DNA of 64,000 bases from a bacterium (GCA_016124895.1 WGMU01000024.1:1-64000), one strand, 5' to 3'; counted from the stretch's first letter, positions 8,346-19,992 are shown. The notes: generated from the sequence alone by a model not told the origin. Program-made: numbers and translations.

Positions 8346-11300
8346 TCACCGTGGCGTGACTCGGGCCAGGCCGGCGGAGGTGGCGAGCCAGAGGTTGTTG
8401 CCGATCGTGACGGCGGCGTAGGTTGAATAGGTCGTGCTCATGCGGAAGCCGTCGCGCAGGCCGTACATGCGGAACTCGCCGCCATCTGGATCGATGCTGT
8501 AAAAGCCCGCGCTGCGGAAGCGTGCCCACGGACTGCCGCCGAACCAGACTCGACCGGCGTGTTCGACAACGAACTCGACGCTGTAGCCGGCTTTGCCTTT
8601 GTCGCTGAACCAGGCATCGCGATAGCGCTTCGCCGTCGTTTCGTCGCTGTTGAACGGTGCAAGCTCGCGACCACTGGTCGAGGTCCAGGCGTGCGAGCTT
8701 CCGGAGAAGATCGCCACGCCGCCTGGACTTGAAGGCACTTCGACAGTCGACCATTGGTTCGCTTCAGGATCGAATTCATGCACAGTCGATCGCGTTGTTG
8801 CAAGCAGCCGGCCAGCCTGAGCGACAAGGTGGGATGGCGCAATCGCCGGTGAGTCTTTTCCGTCGAGGACTTTCACCGAGCCGTCGGCGTCGATGTGAAC
8901 CACTCCGCCAGCGGCTCCGGTCCCGAGCCCGACGAACACACTGGCTTCGGAAACAGCCAGCGAGGTCACGCGGTCATCAGGCAGTCGTTCTCGCTCGGGC
9001 AATTCGTCGGAAGTCGACCACTGCTTCCAGTCGCTGCCAGTCAGACTGCCTCGCCACACGCCGTCGCTCGCAGTGCCGATCCACAGATCGCCGCCGCGCA
9101 CGGCCAGAGCAGTCACGCGGCCGAACTGAGTTGTCAGCGTTCGCCAGGTTTCCGTGCGGGGCTCAAAAGCCAGCACGCCCTGAGCGACGCCGCCTCGAAA
9201 GCCGCCCGCGCAGAACAATGTCGTGCCGTCCGTCGCCAGTACCCGACACATCAGTGGCTGACCAGACGGGTCGGCGAAATACGCAACATCGATATCGCGA
9301 TCCTCGCGCAGCGGTACGCCGCCGAGTTCGCGGATCAATCCTTCGACCGGGCTGTTATCACGCAGGCTCGGCACGGTTTCGGCAGCGCTGACGAGCAGTT
9401 CAACAGCTCTCTCGGGCTCATTCAGATCGCGGTAACACTGGGCGAGTTCCACGGCGTAATAGCCCGCGTTGAGCGACGTCATATCGGCTGGCTGAAACGC
9501 TTCCAGAGACCGCCGCGCTGCGTCCACCTGACCGGCCTGACGCAGACATCGCCCCGCATGAATCCGCAGATTGTCGTGCGCCGTCTGATCGGAACCGGAA
9601 CGGCTGCCGGCCAGTGCGTCCGCTCCGGTCTGATACCACTTCGCCGCCGAGGCAAAGTCACGCTGCCGTTCGGAGTTGATCGCCAGTCCGCGCACGGCGA
9701 TCTGCTTCAGTATCGGTTGATCGCTCGCGACCCAGCGTTCCAGCAGCGGGATCGGATCGATCGCTGCGTTGTCGCTGTTCGTTGCCGCGCGTCGAGCCAG
9801 CAGGCCGTTCGCCAGAGCACGCACACCCATCGCCAGTTGATAAGTGAACTTCGCGTCGGGCTTCTCAGCTTCGGCCGCGGCCAGTTCGATGATCTGCATC
9901 GTCCGTCGCGTATCACCAAGCCGCGCCAGCAGCGGCGACATCGTTGACGGCAGCCGCGCCCAGATCACGTCGCGATCCTGCTCTGGCAGATCCCGAAACA
10001 CGTCTGTCAATTCGTCGACGGCCTGTTCTTCGCGACCAGGCAGCACTTGCCCCGACTTGTGATCAAAGCTGACTTCGGCCAGCAGTCGCAGTGCCGCCGC
10101 ACGCAGCCGTTCGTCCTCCGCTCCCGCCGCTCGACGCAGCAGTTCATCCGCGCGATCGGGATTGCCGATTTCCGGAACAGAAAACGAACAGCAGAAGCCG
10201 AGCGAATAAGCCGCGTCCAGCCGCTGCGGCTGAAGGAACAGCGTCGCTTCCAGGCGGTCGATCGACTTCTTCAGGACTGCGCGCCCCAGCGGCGAGCCGG
10301 CGTCGACGATGTTCGGTCCAGAGGCACGCGGTGCATCCGGCAGTTCAAACCGGCGCAGACTGAAGTCAATCGGCCGCACGCGATGAAAGCGTCTGAGGTC
10401 CGCCGCGACACCGCTCAGCAGCGCGTCGACTTCGTTGAGTTCCCGCAGCGGACCGGGTGTCTCACTCACGTCACTGTCTGCTCCGACCAGCCGACCGGCG
10501 ATCAGGTCGACCTGATGCGCCAGCTCGACTTCCAGTTTCCCCGGCGGCGTCTCGAACCCGAATTCGAGCACCGGGCGATTCGACGCCGCATGGATCAGTT
10601 CGCCGGTCACGACAACCCGAAACTGACCGCCGTCGTTTATTTCGTCGATTGTCCCACGCACCAGAAACGCCGCCGCGCGCGACGGCAGCGTCCGCGGCAG
10701 TCGGCTGCGGTCGGTCAACGCCGACTGAATCAGCTCGAACTCACGCAGCAGTTCCCGCATGTTCGATCGCTGCAGCACCAGAAAGCCACGCGGCTTTGAG
10801 CCGTCGCGCTGTGCGGATTCCGTTTCGTCTTTTCCGTCGTTCGCAGCCTCTTCGACATCGCTGTCTTCGCGGGCGAACCGGTCGCTCCACAACCGCAGCC
10901 GCGTCGCGACCATGTCCCGCAGTCCGAGTTCCAGCGCCCGCAGCCGGTCAAACCGTCCGAGACTTTCAAACGGAGCAACGGCGACGGTGACGGGAGGCCG
11001 CTCCGGCTGCGCCTCGACCAGGGTCAGATACTCGGCAACCTGCGTCGCCGTCTCGTCGAGTCGTGCTTCGTCGATCGTCACGACAACGACGCCGCGGAAC
11101 GCTCCGGTCAGTGACTCGACAATCCGAATCAACGCCCGTGGCGCCGTCACGCCCTGCGATTCGGGAGTGTCGTCGTCCGCAACGTCTTTGTCTTTGGTGG
11201 CCCGCCGCTCGTCGCTGACGTCCGGCTTCAGCAGCTCCAGCGTGACGATCAGATCCGCTGCCGCGATCTTCCCAAGCTGCAGCCGCGCGTCGCTGTCCGC

Positions 11301-11567
11301 CGCGAAGCCGTCGCTTAAGGCCAGCTCCAGCAACGCGAGATCAATCTGCCGCCGTTCGACAACGCTGAACTCGGATCGCGACGCAACGTCGACCTCCAGC
11401 AGCGCGAGCAGCGAACCCATCAAATCCCGCTCGGCCTGGCCAGCTTCTTCATACACGCTGGCGGTCAGTGAAACCGTCGTCTGGCTTTGCGATTTGTCCG
11501 CCGCGGCAGCGATTGATCTAAACGCGAAGAAAATCGCCAGACAGAGCAGTAAGCGGTTGAGAATCAT
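8346..11567 (-). CDS. Large exported protein: CsgG-like N-terminus, TPR-like middle, beta-propeller C-terminus
   Basis: The 1073-residue product begins with a signal peptide (MILNRLLLCLAIFFAFRSIA). Two N-terminal segments resemble the CsgG/LpoB-type fold: SEFSVVERRQIDLALLELAL followed by AADLIVTLELL, then VTVAVAPFESLG. The middle (about residues 430-770) is helical and TPR-like (AAKWYQTGADAL, ELAQCYRDLNEPERAVELLV). The C-terminal 290 residues form repeated propeller blades (VTALAVRGGDLWIGTASDGVW; LWLATSAGLARVTP at the end). It is the last gene of the ECF operon that starts at 15158 and follows another CsgG-like gene, so the two may work together at the envelope. The start was moved inward from 11696 to the ATG at 11567 because a palindromic repeat fills the upstream part. 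Confidence 0.72.
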   Translation of the reverse strand: MILNRLLLCLAIFFAFRSIAAAADKSQSQTTVSLTASVYEEAGQAERDLMGSLLALLEVDVASRSEFSVVERRQIDLALLELALSDGFAADSDARLQLGKIAAADLIVTLELLKPDVSDERRATKDKDVADDDTPESQGVTAPRALIRIVESLTGAFRGVVVVTIDEARLDETATQVAEYLTLVEAQPERPPVTVAVAPFESLGRFDRLRALELGLRDMVATRLRLWSDRFAREDSDVEEAANDGKDETESAQRDGSKPRGFLVLQRSNMRELLREFELIQSALTDRSRLPRTLPSRAAAFLVRGTIDEINDGGQFRVVVTGELIHAASNRPVLEFGFETPPGKLEVELAHQVDLIAGRLVGADSDVSETPGPLRELNEVDALLSGVAADLRRFHRVRPIDFSLRRFELPDAPRASGPNIVDAGSPLGRAVLKKSIDRLEATLFLQPQRLDAAYSLGFCCSFSVPEIGNPDRADELLRRAAGAEDERLRAAALRLLAEVSFDHKSGQVLPGREEQAVDELTDVFRDLPEQDRDVIWARLPSTMSPLLARLGDTRRTMQIIELAAAEAEKPDAKFTYQLAMGVRALANGLLARRAATNSDNAAIDPIPLLERWVASDQPILKQIAVRGLAINSERQRDFASAAKWYQTGADALAGSRSGSDQTAHDNLRIHAGRCLRQAGQVDAARRSLEAFQPADMTSLNAGYYAVELAQCYRDLNEPERAVELLVSAAETVPSLRDNSPVEGLIRELGGVPLREDRDIDVAYFADPSGQPLMCRVLATDGTTLFCAGGFRGGVAQGVLAFEPRTETWRTLTTQFGRVTALAVRGGDLWIGTASDGVWRGSLTGSDWKQWSTSDELPERERLPDDRVTSLAVSEASVFVGLGTGAAGGVVHIDADGSVKVLDGKDSPAIAPSHLVAQAGRLLATTRSTVHEFDPEANQWSTVEVPSSPGGVAIFSGSSHAWTSTSGRELAPFNSDETTAKRYRDAWFSDKGKAGYSVEFVVEHAGRVWFGGSPWARFRSAGFYSIDPDGGEFRMYGLRDGFRMSTTYSTYAAVTIGNNLWLATSAGLARVTPR

Positions 11568-11577
11568 GTCGAGCTTC

Positions 11578-11660
11578 CGTAGGCCGGAACAAGCTATGCG
11601 CCGTTCCGGCATGTTGGCAGAAAGTCTGCCGGAACTTCGCAACGCTTGTTCCGGCCTACG
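11578..11660. repeat. GTAG-headed nested palindrome (REP/BIME-like)
   Basis: The outer arms are a perfect 17-bp inverted repeat (11578-11594 and 11644-11660, beginning CGTAGGCCGGAAC). Inside it lies a second inverted repeat, GTTCCGGCA (11603-11611) with TGCCGGAAC (11627-11635). A GTAG tetranucleotide heads each outer arm, as in REP elements mobilised by RAYT transposases. The repeat sits in the gap between two genes of the same operon, where the transcript could fold. Confidence 0.8.
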
Positions 11661-11699
11661 AATCTGAAACGCTTTCAGCGTTGGGGATCGAATCACGGA

Positions 11700-12677
11700 C
11701 TACTTGCGAACGATCTTTGGCAGCAGACGTTCGGCGATCTCACCCGCGGCTTCCTGCAGTGCAGTCTTGCCGGCAATCTGTTCGGCGAGGTCGACGGCGA
11801 CACTGACCTCACGATCGACGGCCAGTACCCGGCCGCTTTCCCGGTCGAGGGCCTTCAGCTCAAGCCGGGCTTTCACCGACTGCAGGTTGCCATGCCGCGA
11901 GGCGAACTGACTGAAGCCTTCGCCGATCAGGAGGACGTCGGCCGAGTTGCGATCTCCGCGCTCGCGGTCGATCACCTTGAAGCCCAGCTCGTCGCACAGC
12001 CTTGCCAGCTCGGTCGCCGCGGCCGGGTCGGTCGCCGTCTGCCCGACGTGCCGCTCCCTGACATCAATCCAGACACTTGGCCGCTTCCCTTTTCCAAGAG
12101 TCTTTGCAATCGCCGCAACACGGTCCGTTGCCGTGACGGGTTTCGCGACGAGTTCACCAGTTCTCTCCTGGATCGTCTTCGACACGTCACCCGCGAGTTT
12201 CTCGACCAGGCTGTCGAGATCGTCGTCGATGCGACCCTTGGCGGACGCTCCGAGCACGCGCGACGTTTCGGTGCCGATCACCTTCGCGACGAGATACAGA
12301 TTGTCGCCGCTCACAATGACCGAACCAGTCACGATGATCTTCGCCCCGGTCAGATGCCCGATCAGCGTTGCCCGCTGCGGATCAACAAGGCCCGACAGAT
12401 TCAGCTCCTGTTCGTCAAACAGTTTTTTGACGTCTTCACGTTCGACGAGGAAGAGGTCGGGATTCGTGACCAGGCCGACGAACAGCAGATCGGAGACCTG
12501 AGTCCCCAGCTCGCTGGCCTCGCGACCGCGTTCCTGAAACGGCAGCACGGCGACGGGATAAACCGCAGGCTGCTCGTCATCTTTCTCTTCGCGATCCTTC
12601 GCCCACACAGCGGATGAACTCAGCACCACGATCGCCAGCAAAGCCGGCACACTCCAACGCAACGTTCGACGCATCAT
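11700..12677 (-). CDS. CsgG-like exported protein
   Basis: The 325-residue protein has a signal peptide (LRWSVPALLAIVVLSSSAVWA). A CsgG/FlgO-type domain follows, with YPVAVLPFQERG, LFLVEREDVKKLFDEQEL and LTGAKIIVTGSV. The second half (from about residue 190) again resembles a nucleotide-like alpha/beta envelope domain (VDVRERHVGQ, ADVLLIGEG). Family members assemble curli pores or regulate envelope synthesis. There is no lipobox cysteine, unlike true CsgG. AGGAG precedes the ATG, with a second ATG immediately after. It is the fourth gene of the ECF-led operon, 41 nt from the exported protein upstream. Confidence 0.72.
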   Translation of the reverse strand: MMRRTLRWSVPALLAIVVLSSSAVWAKDREEKDDEQPAVYPVAVLPFQERGREASELGTQVSDLLFVGLVTNPDLFLVEREDVKKLFDEQELNLSGLVDPQRATLIGHLTGAKIIVTGSVIVSGDNLYLVAKVIGTETSRVLGASAKGRIDDDLDSLVEKLAGDVSKTIQERTGELVAKPVTATDRVAAIAKTLGKGKRPSVWIDVRERHVGQTATDPAAATELARLCDELGFKVIDRERGDRNSADVLLIGEGFSQFASRHGNLQSVKARLELKALDRESGRVLAVDREVSVAVDLAEQIAGKTALQEAAGEIAERLLPKIVRK

Positions 12678-12718
12678 GATTTCGGTCTCCTGTGAGAGGG
12701 ATTCAGTTCAAGTCCGGC

Positions 12719-13807
12719 CTACCGTTCTGGAACCACCGCCGGTTCTGTTCGCGACAGCGATTCGAGCATCCGCACCAGCAGATAGCGCGGCGTCGGGCCA
12801 TGCTCCCAGTGCTCGACGATGCGGAAACCGCAGACGATCAGCACGCCACCGCTGCCCGGATACCGCAGCTCAATCCACGGCCAGCCGTTGCCATCGCCGG
12901 TGATGTCCGCCCGAAGACGCCCGCGGACGGCCTCGATTCGCAGCCCACGAAATGGCACGCGATTGCCCACGCCGAGCCACGCCTGCGTGTCCAGTCGCTT
13001 GTCGAATTCCGTGATGACCGAATTCCGTGTGATGCGAACTTCTCCGGCTCTCACGTCGCCGCGAGTGGCGTCTTCGCTGAGTCCCGGCATCTCGAACGAG
13101 CCGTCCCGCGGAGCGAGCACGATGACTCGTCGCCCGGCCAGCGCTGCTTCAACAGCGGTTTCGATCAACGACCCGTTGCCCAGCGCCGCTCCCTCGCCGA
13201 CCAGCAGGATGCCATTTTGATTCGCTTCATCGGATGCTGCTCCGATCCGAACTGAATTCCATGCCCGCAGGGCCTGAGACGGCAGGTCGATCGATGCCAG
13301 CGCCTCGGCGGTTTTCCCGTTCGCGTCAAACAGATCCAGATCAAGTGATTCTGCCCAGGCACTCCGGCCGAACAGTGGCTTGCGGGGAAACAGCCACAGC
13401 GTCCGCTCATGCCTGGCCATCGGCGTGTTCTCCCCTGGCGGGAGGAATTCAGCGGTGAGCGTTGTCGGATAAATGATTCCGTCTCGAACCTCCGGCAGTC
13501 GCAGACGAAAGCTCACTTCTGAATCACCGTCCGGTCCGCGACGAACCGCCACCTCACCACGATCCAGAGTTCGTTGTTCCGCGGAGTGCGACCAGTTCAG
13601 CTTGCCCTCAACCGGCTGCTCTGCTTTGACGTGGAAGGCAATCATCACTTCGTCGCCAGCAAACACCGTCGAGAAGTTCTCGACGGGCGAGAGGCGGATC
13701 TCGTCCGCGCAAACAGCGGAAGTGATCTGCAGAGAAGAGAGTACGACGGTCACGCCAAAGACAGCGATCTGTGTCGTTTGCCTGAGTTTCTTCTTCAAAC
13801 CGTTCAT
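12719..13807 (-). CDS. Exported protein of unknown function in an ECF operon
   Basis: The 362-residue protein has a signal peptide (TQIAVFGVTVVLSSLQITSA) followed by a beta-sandwich-like region (VFAGDEVMIAFHVKAEQPVE). The second half has alternating hydrophobic strands (RRVIVLAPRDGSFEMPG, GVLIVCGFRIVEHWEHGPTP) that resemble a Rossmann-like or glutamine-amidotransferase-like fold. I do not recognise the family. The ATG at 13807 overlaps the TGA of the anti-sigma gene (TGATG), so the two are translationally coupled. A GTG three bases earlier is an alternative start. The protein could sense or act on the envelope under control of the upstream sigma/anti-sigma pair. Confidence 0.65.
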   Translation of the reverse strand: MNGLKKKLRQTTQIAVFGVTVVLSSLQITSAVCADEIRLSPVENFSTVFAGDEVMIAFHVKAEQPVEGKLNWSHSAEQRTLDRGEVAVRRGPDGDSEVSFRLRLPEVRDGIIYPTTLTAEFLPPGENTPMARHERTLWLFPRKPLFGRSAWAESLDLDLFDANGKTAEALASIDLPSQALRAWNSVRIGAASDEANQNGILLVGEGAALGNGSLIETAVEAALAGRRVIVLAPRDGSFEMPGLSEDATRGDVRAGEVRITRNSVITEFDKRLDTQAWLGVGNRVPFRGLRIEAVRGRLRADITGDGNGWPWIELRYPGSGGVLIVCGFRIVEHWEHGPTPRYLLVRMLESLSRTEPAVVPER

Positions 13808-14610
13808 CACCCGACCTCCCTGTCGAGCCGTGCGACGGTCTGGAAGACTCGATACTCGACGCCGTTCTGCGAGACCGCCGCGACCTCCTGTGGCTGGCCG
13901 TCTTTACAAAGCGTCGTCGTTGCGGAACGAAACGCGTGGTCGCCGCCGAGTTGCACATCGCAATCGACCGCGATCAGTCCGTCGGGAAGCTCGTACGCCC
14001 ACAGCCGCAGTTCGTCGCCGTTCGCGTCGCGCGGAGTGACTCGAACCTGTTCCTCGGCCGGCGACGTCACGTCCATTGCCCACGCGACCTGCCAGTCAGC
14101 GCGGCCGCGTTCTCGACGAACCACCACAACGCGAATGGCCAGCGGATTCGCTTCGCCCGGATGACCAATCCGCGCCGCCGACTCGTCAAGGCCCAGCTCA
14201 ACACGATCACCGCTTTCGGCCAGCCAGACGAGTTGCCCGTCGAACAGGGACTCCAGCTCGGACAGCAGAAGCGTCTTACTCTGAAGCTGTTCGCCGCGCA
14301 GCCAGGTGAACTCGGGCGGAACGTCCGTTGTGGCGACTATCGACAGTTGGCGCTGTTCGACAGCCAGAAACACACACAGCGAAACCAACAGTGTCGCCGC
14401 GACACCGACAGCGAAACCGGCCGACCAGCGACCTGGTTCTCTGACTGGTTGCGACGCCGTTTTAACGTCATTTGAATCCACTGATCGCGCTTCGGCCGCT
14501 GACAGAAGGATTCGCTGCTGCAGAATCTCCAGTCGCTCCGAGAAGACGGACTGCCCGGCCCAGTCGGACAGCAGTTCGTCAAGCCGGTCGTCGTCGTGTC
14601 TTGAGTTCAT
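13807..14610 (-). CDS. Single-pass membrane protein, probable anti-sigma factor
   Basis: The 267-residue protein has a short cytoplasmic N-terminus (DDDRLDELLSDWAGQSVFSE) resembling the sigma-binding helix region of planctomycete anti-sigma factors. One membrane segment (FAVGVAATLLVSLCVFLAVE, about residues 65-85) follows, then a periplasmic domain of about 175 residues. There is no HxxxCxxC zinc motif. Its start overlaps the stop of the ECF sigma gene (ATGA), the usual arrangement for a sigma/anti-sigma pair. Function is inferred from architecture and position rather than from strong domain identity. Confidence 0.65.
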   Translation of the reverse strand: MNSRHDDDRLDELLSDWAGQSVFSERLEILQQRILLSAAEARSVDSNDVKTASQPVREPGRWSAGFAVGVAATLLVSLCVFLAVEQRQLSIVATTDVPPEFTWLRGEQLQSKTLLLSELESLFDGQLVWLAESGDRVELGLDESAARIGHPGEANPLAIRVVVVRRERGRADWQVAWAMDVTSPAEEQVRVTPRDANGDELRLWAYELPDGLIAVDCDVQLGGDHAFRSATTTLCKDGQPQEVAAVSQNGVEYRVFQTVARLDREVG

Positions 14611-15158
14611 TGCAGATGCTCCTCAAGCAGTTGTTTCAACTGGCGCCGAGCTTCGTGGACTCGCCAGTACATGGTGTCGATCGAGCACCCTTCAATTTCT
14701 GCCGCAACGGACGCCGGTTGTTTCTGCAGACAGACAAGCACGACGGCCGCTCGCAGTTGTGGTGAGAGCTGGCCCAGTGCCGCCTGCACTTCAGTGGTCA
14801 GCTCCTGCAGCAGCGCCGCGGAGTCGGGGCATCCTGACGCAACCGCCACGCCTTCGGGCAGCTCATTGCGGAATTCAACCCGCGACTGACTGTGCTGCTT
14901 CAGAAAGGTCCGCGCGGAATTCATCGCGACCTGAAACAGCCACGTCGAGAATTCCGACCGGCCCTCGAACCGGTCGATGCCGCGGACGACTCGCAGAAAC
15001 ACGTCCTGCGTGACGTCGTCCGCCGCGTCGTGATCGAGCAGCATCTGAAACACCAGGCCGCGGATCGGCTTCAGGTGGCGGCGCAGCAGTTCGTCGAGGA
15101 ACTCGCCGCGTCCGGTCTCCCGAAACTGTCGCAGCAGATGCTGATCAGAGTCCGCCAA
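14607..15158 (-). CDS. ECF RNA polymerase sigma factor
   Basis: The 183-residue protein has region 2 (MLLDHDAADDVTQDVFLRVV, FSTWLFQVAMN) and region 4 (LSPQLRAAVVLVCLQKQPAS, then DTMYWRVHEARRQLKQLL) of ECF sigma factors. The residue usually found as SxGTVKSR at the end of region 4.2 is replaced by CSIDTMYWRVHEA, a recognised planctomycete-type variant. The TTG at 15158 is chosen as the start because it has GAGG just upstream and gives the family length. The open frame continues upstream to 15464 but that part lacks any sigma homology. The gene heads a five-gene operon down to 8346. Confidence 0.85.
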   Translation of the reverse strand: MADSDQHLLRQFRETGRGEFLDELLRRHLKPIRGLVFQMLLDHDAADDVTQDVFLRVVRGIDRFEGRSEFSTWLFQVAMNSARTFLKQHSQSRVEFRNELPEGVAVASGCPDSAALLQELTTEVQAALGQLSPQLRAAVVLVCLQKQPASVAAEIEGCSIDTMYWRVHEARRQLKQLLEEHLQ

Positions 15159-15363
15159 ATCCGCCTCACCGCTTCTGAAGTTTCTGAACCGGGAGAATGA
15201 GACCGCGCCCGGATGAAATTCCTGGCGGACATTTTGAGGTTTTCCCGGAATGGTCCGCAGAGTAACGAAGTCGGCATGCGGAAGTCGGAGGCGGGACGGA
15301 TTGGAAGCTCGTCCTGCGCAAGACGCAATCGCCTCTGCCGGAGCTCGCTGCGCTCGGATCGAC

Positions 15364-16949: not shown

Positions 16950-18977
16950 TTAGAGCAGAACGTCGTCGTCGGAAAGGTCGCTCAGCACGTCATTGCCGGC
17001 GCCGCCATCGATTGTGTCGCTGCCAGGACCGCCGATCAGCGTGTCATCACCGTCGCCTCCGGTCAGCACATCGAGCCCGACGCCTCCTGAGATCGAATCC
17101 CGGTCGCCATCCAGGAAATCGTTTCCGCTGCCGCCATCGAGAACGTCGTTGTCTCCGGTACCAAGCAGCACGTCGTCGCCACCGTTACCGATCAACGTGT
17201 CGTTGCCGTTGCTGCCTCGCAGTGTGTCGTTGCCGGCTCCGTCGACAAATCGATCATTCCCACGGCCGCCGATATACAGAATCGCGAAGTCGGGATTGGT
17301 GATCCCGGACGCGTCGATGTTGTCGTCGAAGCTGTAGCCGTTGACCCGGATCATCTCCACGCAGACGTAGTCGCCCTCGACAATAACACCGCTCTTGTCA
17401 GGACTGTCGGTGAGTGTGGCGTTCTGCAGGCTGTAAGCGGTCTGATCGTAACCCGAGTCCCCAATGAGTCGGTCTCGTCCTGAGTTGCCATACAGCGAAT
17501 CGTTGCCGTTACCACCGCGAACCGTGTCCTGCCCTCCGCCGCCAAAGATGGAATCATCGCCGGCATTTCCGTAGATCACGTCGTTATCGTTGCCGCCGTA
17601 GACGGTATCGCCGCCTGGCCCGGCATAAATCGAATCTTCTCCTGCATCGCCTGCAATGAAGTCCTCGCCGTCTCCCCCTTCAATGAAGTCATTGCCGGCA
17701 TCGCCGTACAGAGAATCGGACAGGCTGGAGCCGCGGATGACGTCGTCGCCGACGCAGCCGTAGGCCACCAGTTCCGTTCCCGCTGCGCCGATGATTGTGT
17801 CGTTTCCAGCGTTGCCGAAGACCGTATTCGCCAGTCCGCCGCCAGTGAACCGGTCATTTCCGCCTTTGCCATGAAACACGATCGCGGTGATGGGTGATAC
17901 GGCCGACGCGTCCACGATGTCGTCTCCGTTTGTTCCACGAATCACAATGACGGCGTCAGTGACAAGATCTCCGTTAACCAGCGTGCCGTTCTGATACTGA
18001 CCCGCGTCGCTGCCGCTGACGAGTGTCAGGTTGCGGGATGAGACCGGAGCGATATTCGCTCCGGCACCGCCACGGAGGTTGTCGATGCCGCCATTTCCAT
18101 ACATGACATCGTCGCCACTGCCGGCGTGAACCAGGTCGCAGCCTGAGCCGCCCATCATGGTGTCGTCACCCCCCTGGCCGAACAGTGAATCGTTCCCGGC
18201 GCCGCCGCGCACAACATCCGAACCTGCCCCCGCCTGAATCGTGTCAGCTCCCGCCCCACCTGAGATCACATCCGCGCCCGCGAAGGTTTCAATCGAGTCT
18301 CGCCCCATCCCTCCGAATACCGTATCGGGACCGTTGGTCCCCAGGACTGTGTCCCGGCCAGCTCCGGCATCGATCTCGCTGGAATCGCTGCCCTGAACGT
18401 CGATCAGGTCGTTACCGTCGCTGCCAAAAACCTTCGCCAGGTGGCCTGCCAGATCAGTCAGCGTGTCGGCACCCAGCGAACCGAGCAATGTGTCGTTGCC
18501 AGCTCCACCGTCGAGCGTGTCTGAAACTCGACCTCCGTTAATCCGGTCGTTGCCGTCCCCACCGCTGATCCGGTTGGGGATGTTCGCAGCGCCGGAGATA
18601 CGGTCGGCACCATCGCCACCATCAACGGAGATCTGCAGCAGACCAGGCAGAAAGACGGCGTTCAGCTTGTGCAGGTCGATTACGTCCTGGTCTGGACTGC
18701 CAGTCACTCGAATCTCGGTCAGCGGTAGCCCCGACGCCAGAATCTCACCGTTGACAGTGATGTTCGAGTCGCTGTCGACTCCAAATGTCAGTTCGCCACT
18801 GCCCGAGACGCTCAGAACGGTACCGGCAACTGAAGACGACAAAACGGTCAGTAACTGACGCGGTTCGAGTGCTTCCAGCCACCGTGACCAAATCCTCTGA
18901 CCGCGATGTCTGCGGCGACGCGGCCACCGCGGCCGGAGCTGGAACAGATCGGTGAAACGAAATCCCACACGTTTCAT
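16950..18977 (-). CDS. Secreted calcium-binding (RTX/hemolysin-type) repeat protein
   Basis: The 675-residue protein begins with an arginine-rich N-terminus (RPRWPRRRRHRGQRIW) followed by LEALEPRQLLT, the LEPR motif that marks exported planctomycete adhesin-like proteins. From about residue 125 nearly the whole sequence is GGxGxDxxx nonapeptides in several blocks (GGDGNDRINGG, GGAGNDTLLGSLGADTLT, GGSGNDFLDGD), interrupted by short spacers containing DGVIVEGDYV-like or SGVIVEGD strands. It probably folds as calcium-loaded parallel beta-rolls outside the cell, in matrix or adhesion. The start is the ATG at 18977. No type I secretion genes are adjacent. Confidence 0.85.
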   Translation of the reverse strand: MKRVGFRFTDLFQLRPRWPRRRRHRGQRIWSRWLEALEPRQLLTVLSSSVAGTVLSVSGSGELTFGVDSDSNITVNGEILASGLPLTEIRVTGSPDQDVIDLHKLNAVFLPGLLQISVDGGDGADRISGAANIPNRISGGDGNDRINGGRVSDTLDGGAGNDTLLGSLGADTLTDLAGHLAKVFGSDGNDLIDVQGSDSSEIDAGAGRDTVLGTNGPDTVFGGMGRDSIETFAGADVISGGAGADTIQAGAGSDVVRGGAGNDSLFGQGGDDTMMGGSGCDLVHAGSGDDVMYGNGGIDNLRGGAGANIAPVSSRNLTLVSGSDAGQYQNGTLVNGDLVTDAVIVIRGTNGDDIVDASAVSPITAIVFHGKGGNDRFTGGGLANTVFGNAGNDTIIGAAGTELVAYGCVGDDVIRGSSLSDSLYGDAGNDFIEGGDGEDFIAGDAGEDSIYAGPGGDTVYGGNDNDVIYGNAGDDSIFGGGGQDTVRGGNGNDSLYGNSGRDRLIGDSGYDQTAYSLQNATLTDSPDKSGVIVEGDYVCVEMIRVNGYSFDDNIDASGITNPDFAILYIGGRGNDRFVDGAGNDTLRGSNGNDTLIGNGGDDVLLGTGDNDVLDGGSGNDFLDGDRDSISGGVGLDVLTGGDGDDTLIGGPGSDTIDGGAGNDVLSDLSDDDVLL

Positions 18978-19503
18978 AGTGAAGCAACCGGGCGGAGGTA
19001 GTATCGAGAATGACTTTTCAGAGTTCGCGGCCTCGGTCCTGGAGGTCCACAGCCGATGAATGAGCCGGGCGCGATGACTCGATCGGGCAAGGCGTGTAGG
19101 GAACCAGAATGAGTGTCCGGACAGCGACGCGTTGCCATGACTCTTCCCGCTGTCGATGCTGATAACAAATCTCGAGTGACAATAATCTGCCAGGTTGGGC
19201 AAGCAACTGGCCGCCATGCAGCACAATCCGGGAGACCGTCAAAGCCCAGGGATCGTTGGGAGGGGAGGTGGGGTGGCAGACTCAACGCAACAGAACGCTC
19301 TGAACGAACCGTTATGCAGGAGGCGGTCGAAACAGACACCGCAGGCGATGTCGCCGGCTCAGTCACCAGCCTGGGGATTGATCCGGGCAACCGTCCGGCG
19401 CTGACGAATTGACGGAAACCCGTTAAACGCGAAACTTTACGGGAATAAGCTTCCGGCCGGACGGATCAGCACACCAGACGATGAGCTTCAGGACTGGCCT
19501 TGC
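18978..19503. other. Divergent intergenic region, no gene seen
   Basis: About 525 bases separate the divergent starts of the calcium-binding repeat protein and the ECF sigma gene. Frames here have no homology or plausible start signals. It presumably contains both promoters, but I cannot point to convincing -35/-10 or ECF-type boxes. Confidence 0.5.
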
Positions 19504-19992
19504 GTGGACATTTCAGCGCTCGTTGAACAGAACTACGAAGCGGCTTACCGCTTTGCCTACCGGCTTTCCGGAACGGCTCACGAGGCGGAAGATCTGACGC
19601 AGCAGGCCTTTCTGGACGCTCAGCGGAAGCTCGACACGCTTCGAGAGTCAGACAAAGCACGCGCGTGGCTGTTCATGATCATTCGGAATCTGCATCGACG
19701 ACGGCTTCGTGACCGCGGCGTCCACCGCGAGGTTGCTGTCGATCCGTCGTTCGATGTGCCGGACCTGACCGCCACCGCAGAGGCCACCACACTGAACAGC
19801 GACTCGCTGCAGCAGGTTCTGAACGAACTGCCGGCCGAATTCCGCGATGTTCTGGTCCTGTTTTACTTTCGTGAACTGAGTTACCGGGAAATCGCCGAGC
19901 GGCTGGACGTTCCGATCGGCACGGTGATGAGCCGGTTGTCGCGTGGCAAACAACAGCTCCGTGGCCGGCTCAGTCTTGATGGATTTCCCTGA
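19504..19992 (+). CDS. ECF RNA polymerase sigma factor
   Basis: The 162-residue protein starts at a GTG (MDISALVEQNYEAAYRFAYR). It shows region 2 (GTAHEAEDLTQQAFLDAQRK, ARAWLFMIIRNLHRR) and region 4 (LPAEFRDVLVLFYFRELSYR, then EIAERLDVPIGTVMSRLSRG). Length and motifs are standard for SigE/RpoE-type ECF factors. A zinc-finger anti-sigma gene follows after 68 nt, and then a sulfatase-fold gene, so this heads a three-gene operon that is probably autoregulated. Confidence 0.92.
   Translation: MDISALVEQNYEAAYRFAYRLSGTAHEAEDLTQQAFLDAQRKLDTLRESDKARAWLFMIIRNLHRRRLRDRGVHREVAVDPSFDVPDLTATAEATTLNSDSLQQVLNELPAEFRDVLVLFYFRELSYREIAERLDVPIGTVMSRLSRGKQQLRGRLSLDGFP

Follow-up and report, generated by a model that had tools for sequence, protein, structure and literature searches.

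What does an ECF sigma factor control when the genes behind its own encode two CsgG-like proteins and a propeller? The question is raised by a 64,000-nt stretch of bacterial DNA (GCA_016124895.1 WGMU01000024.1:1-64000; the window, to which all coordinates refer), which belongs to an 8.13-Mb genome from the phylum Planctomycetota. Planctomycetota harbor unusually many ECF sigma factors and have an unusual envelope, with few functions assigned. The original prediction regarded the locus as a possible envelope-response system and its products as a device that might monitor the cell surface or the outer membrane.

Organization of the locus

Five genes are present within 8346-15158, all on the minus strand, as had been predicted. 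They encode a sigma factor, a membrane protein, an exported protein, a stand-alone CsgG-like protein and a large exported protein. All five have counterparts in a relative of the same genus, with pN/pS values of 0.19-0.49, which argues that the genes are genuine and that purifying selection acts on them. The predicted overlaps exist as well: ATGA joins the genes of the sigma factor and the membrane protein, and the gene of the exported protein overlaps the end of the membrane protein gene. The sigma gene is nested within a longer ORF reaching 15464. The large protein comprises 1073 aa when counted from its ATG; its open frame runs on to 11696.

The gap between the CsgG-like gene and the large gene holds a REP-like inverted repeat, a hairpin of 80 bp at about 11579-11659, whose arms consist of the 16-mer GTAGGCCGGAACAAGC. 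Allowing one mismatch at most, the arm is found at 30 places in the genome and at none in the reversed control. With this hairpin lying between the two genes, we consider a single transcript spanning all five genes likely rather than certain. The hairpin could uncouple the expression of the large gene. A search of the same genome revealed no paralogues of the anti-sigma factor, the CsgG-like protein or the large protein.

Two neighbors of the locus should be mentioned. Two genes upstream of the sigma gene, positions 16950-19226 (minus strand) encode a protein of 758 aa that is rich in calcium-binding nonapeptide repeats of the RTX type (PF00353, 5e-73). A second ECF sigma gene, unrelated to the first one, lies about 4.3 kb away at 19504-19992 (plus strand).

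Sigma factor and its partner

The product of the first gene (14607-15158, minus strand; TTG start) is short, 183 aa, and has regions 2 and 4 only (PF04542, 9e-16; PF08281, 5.5e-6), which defines it as an ECF (group IV sigma-70) factor. Its top NCBIfam matches are generic sigma/ECF models, and none of the listed equivalog cut-offs is reached.

The adjoining gene (13807-14610, minus strand) encodes a protein with an N-terminal cytoplasmic domain, one transmembrane helix at residues 66-84 and an exported C-terminal domain of approximately 180 aa, which is the build of a class I anti-sigma factor. The zinc motif Hx3Cx2C is absent from it, in line with the original description of a zinc-less protein. 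Three distant orthologues (in loci L015, L097 and L102) do carry Hx3Cx2C, with a zf-HC2 match of 5.4e-7 in L015. These orthologues provide the best evidence for reading the membrane protein as the predicted anti-sigma factor. The missing motif is compatible with class I membership, since about 44% of class I anti-sigma domains lack Hx3Cx2C, and zinc and non-zinc domains are mixed within one group (PMC7406223).

Promoter and extent of the regulon

Phylogenetic footprinting revealed a bipartite motif, C[CA]A[AG]GA[AT]T-N14-GTC[TA][AC]A, upstream of the sigma gene in 9 of 10 family loci. Its spacing is invariant, and a single match occurred among 20,000 shuffled upstream regions. The tenth family locus (L060) has a near match only. 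In the window, the predicted autoregulatory promoter is situated at 15198-15225 (minus strand) and consists of the -35 element CCAGGAAT, a 14-nt spacer and the -10 element GTCTCA. This shape agrees with that of RpoE-type ECF promoters (AGGAAT... GTCTAA). The conserved promoter ends 39 nt upstream of the TTG and thereby supports this start codon. Outside the family, CCAAGAAC-N14-GTCTAA can be read from the sequence upstream of the L015 sigma gene; at other distant loci it is mainly the -10 element GTCTAA that stays recognizable, the -35 element having drifted.

In the whole genome a single place matches the pattern exactly, and it lies ahead of the sigma factor's own operon. When up to two mismatches were allowed, 477 places were found versus 461 in the reversed control, so that no excess pointing to a wider regulon is visible. 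In 170 genomes of the family a strict form of the pattern has 9 matches, 4 of which are the promoter of the sigma operon. The relative of the same genus has a second match to the pattern (L010:5647), within its gene for the exported protein.

Because the predicted promoter occurs once and stands before its own operon, we favor an autoregulated, probably single-target switch over a global stress regulator. The simplest reading of the promoter search is that the operon is the principal target of the sigma factor, and probably the only one. It is possible that a few further targets are reached through degenerate sites, which a pattern search may miss. Autoregulation as such is usual among ECFs (PMC8103513).

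Exported proteins

The protein encoded at 12719-13810 (minus strand) has a signal peptide. It matches no Pfam domain, and the search for solved relatives by sequence profile gave nothing useful. Its predicted structure (pLDDT 66) begins with an Ig-like domain. Both domains of the model align to the GH2 structure 8u01 (194 residues, Z 10.3, rmsd 4.1), and one homologue shows a DUF4350 match of 0.04. According to the model, the protein probably resembles the non-catalytic C-terminus of GH2 enzymes, i.e. an Ig-like domain followed by a GATase1/flavodoxin-like domain, the second of them being uncertain.

For both CsgG-like proteins the fold that was claimed for them is supported. In the stand-alone protein (11700-12677, minus strand) the support comes from Pfam and from the predicted structure, in the large protein from Pfam and profile comparison. 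The stand-alone protein has a signal peptide, and PF03783 matches it with 3.4e-10. The search for solved relatives by sequence profile returned only a weak match to CsgG. The model (pLDDT 80) consists of two tandem alpha/beta domains, residues 37-172 and 181-325. The best match of domain 1 is domain 1 of TolB (Z 14, 122 residues, 2.7 A); LpoB and GNA1162 (Z 11) match it as well. FlgT (Z 12) and PelC (Z 11) are also among the best structural matches of the protein. Domain 2 matches the core of CsgG (Z 12).

Does the stand-alone protein form a pore of the curli type? We rejected this candidate. Neither the protein nor its relatives carry a lipobox cysteine, and the predicted model has no transmembrane beta-hairpins, which makes the function of a pore unlikely. 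No CsgA, CsgE or CsgF partner was recognized among the flanking genes that were scanned.

The large protein (8346-11567, minus strand) contains the CsgG-like, TPR and propeller parts anticipated from the sequence, the TPR score being weak. Two CsgG-like domains occupy about residues 33-186 and 186-372; a helical, TPR-like region comes next, and a Kelch/Reg_prop-type propeller takes about 746-1073. Pfam gives 3.2e-6 for CsgG and 2e-5 for Kelch; TPR and Reg_prop are weak, below the cut-off. The C-terminus matches Kelch propellers in the PDB, and there is a PorZ-type match of 8e-4. Its CsgG/TolB-N fold was assigned from profile comparison: when aligned by hhalign with domain 1 of the stand-alone protein, the two CsgG-like domains give E-values of 6e-9 and 3e-6, whereas the helical and propeller regions, used as controls, give 0.26-0.68.

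Conservation across genomes

The genes were expected to co-occur in relatives if they formed a unit, and they do. The order of sigma, anti-sigma, exported and CsgG-like gene, followed by one to three large proteins, is kept in about 17 loci, which cover separate families of Planctomycetota and extend in part to a MAG of Armatimonadota. The first four genes occur in this order in the window, L010, L012/L055, L053, L054, L056, L057, L058, L020, L060, L017, L095, L097, L099 and L102, and in part in L062; some partners in L062 and L099 were recognized by position, not by sequence score. The Armatimonadota locus (L015, Ca. Zipacnadia MAG) has these four genes, running to the end of the contig. The CsgG-like protein is matched in 24 of 170 genomes of the family, about 16 times near its full length. 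Among 392 genomes sampled from the phylum as a whole, 10 hold a match at E 1e-30.

The flanks of the loci are mostly different. Those shared are one neighbor common to three loci of one genus, and a downstream DUF1553 gene common to L010 and the window. At L096:6602-15979 the sigma and anti-sigma genes are divergent from the genes of the exported protein, the CsgG-like protein and two large proteins, and the two groups are still linked; in the AT-rich intergenic region of L096 we did not find a clear motif. A chance neighborhood or plain synteny can thus be rejected, because the order of the block is kept amid mostly different flanks and linkage persists in the rearranged locus.

For the sigma factor, anti-sigma factor, exported protein and CsgG-like protein of 17 loci, tree distances are correlated with r of 0.81-0.91 (0.91 for sigma versus anti-sigma), and none of 2000 permutations reached values as high. 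Such a correlation between sequence-derived trees shows joint inheritance, not contact.

Variation was observed too. Loci L018, L019 and L021 have the exported and CsgG-like protein with no sigma or anti-sigma gene nearby. The large proteins carry WD40 in L018, an FGE-sulfatase domain together with a CsgG domain in L014, and unrecognized domains elsewhere. In L019 (9942-14849) the position of the large gene is occupied by a relative of 1635 aa with 3-keto-disaccharide hydrolase, FlgO/CsgG and DUF4350 domains. One MAG labelled Desulfobacterium carries the exported and CsgG-like protein on contig ends; this may be a case of misbinning.

Model of the operon

We consider it probable that the locus is a self-contained, autoregulated switch of an ECF sigma and its anti-sigma factor, which acts mainly or probably only on its own operon and makes a periplasmic or cell-surface assembly. 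At rest, the membrane anti-sigma factor would hold the sigma factor, as is typical of its family; its identity is backed by the zinc-finger orthologues. An envelope signal perceived by the exported C-terminal domain of the anti-sigma factor would then free the sigma factor, which presumably binds the footprinted bipartite site in front of the sigma gene and thereby raises the expression of the whole operon. As a consequence, the exported products would accumulate: the Ig/GATase-like protein, the tandem CsgG/TolB-N-fold protein and at least one large CsgG-like protein with TPR and propeller or other domains. To judge from their fold and co-occurrence, the exported proteins probably co-assemble via shared CsgG-type domains, by analogy with the rings of PelC and CsgG. 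The variable propeller or enzyme-like domains might give the envelope structure its specificity. One can even speculate that the exported products feed back on the anti-sigma factor.

A more elaborate version seems to us possible, though doubtful. It sees the locus as an envelope apparatus with a private circuit, in which a one-promoter ECF loop governs a CsgG-fold scaffold. The large proteins (propeller, WD40, FGE-sulfatase, glycoside-related) would be interchangeable and bind to this scaffold via homologous CsgG-like domains. Such an apparatus would occur widely among Planctomycetota and, in part, in Armatimonadota.

The main rival is the monitoring device of the original prediction, which we find rather unlikely. 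Here the propeller/TPR/CsgG proteins would be upstream sensors that signal the state of the outer membrane or surface to the anti-sigma factor, and the sigma factor would drive a wider envelope response. The Kelch, Reg_prop and PorZ-type signatures of the large protein and the co-inheritance of the exported genes with the anti-sigma gene speak in its favor. However, the single promoter site leaves no wider regulon visible, so that the idea of an envelope-response system has to be revised; its sigma/anti-sigma part is strengthened by the zinc-finger orthologues. Moreover, the exported core persists at loci devoid of sigma and anti-sigma genes, and it is the large protein that differs from locus to locus. 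Since this core exists independently and the further domains of the large proteins are not constant, it is more likely that the CsgG/propeller proteins represent the regulated output, perhaps with feedback, rather than merely the sensor.

Two other readings start from the CsgG fold itself. One takes the CsgG-like protein for a channel in the outer membrane through which the large protein, or some other substrate, would be exported; its fold and its Pfam match to CsgG speak in favor. We nevertheless hold such secretion to be very improbable, given the absent lipobox, a Pfam match that is limited to profile positions 33-99 of 210, and a model whose alignment to the CsgG core lacks the membrane-hairpin residues (141 of 219 spanned); besides, the N-termini of the window's exported proteins are themselves hydrophobic and resemble signal peptides. 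Alternatively, the CsgG-fold protein might be a periplasmic scaffold comparable to LpoB, TolB or PelC, which tethers or helps to assemble peptidoglycan or outer membrane; the role of the sigma loop would then be limited to adjusting the amount of this protein. The best structural matches (TolB, FlgT, LpoB and PelC) point this way. We regard it as improbable in this form, as function does not follow from similarity of fold and partner genes of the Pal, PBP or Pel kind are missing from the operon. It is largely compatible with the autoregulated switch that we prefer.

The preferred switch can also be compared with known systems. With pairs of the RpoE-RseA and SigW-RsiW type it has in common a sigma factor of regions 2 and 4, a co-encoded single-pass anti-sigma factor and a promoter before the sigma gene; it differs by its apparently single target and by its cargo of CsgG-fold, Ig/GATase-like and propeller proteins. 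The curli channel CsgG shares the core alpha/beta fold (PF03783), but here two such domains stand in tandem, and lipobox and membrane hairpins are missing. TolB resembles domain 1 of the CsgG-like protein, and the large protein also pairs such a domain with a propeller; yet this propeller is of Kelch/Reg_prop type, accompanied by a TPR-like insert and two CsgG-like domains, and the operon is under ECF control and lacks Tol-Pal genes. The group of LpoB, PelC, FlgT and TraT has the same fold and export by signal peptide, whereas partner genes of those systems are absent from the operon.

Significance

The folds are known ones, and the regulation follows a standard logic. What we did not find described in the open-access literature is their combination and the loop with a single promoter; no paper linking CsgG with ECF/anti-sigma factors and Planctomycetes was found there. 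The operon is compact and conserved, a promoter and an anti-sigma factor are predicted for it, and its exported products are defined; therefore its target, its signal and its assembly are each directly testable. If our assumptions hold, the CsgG/TolB-N fold would be extended to an undescribed, ECF-controlled assembly of the envelope.
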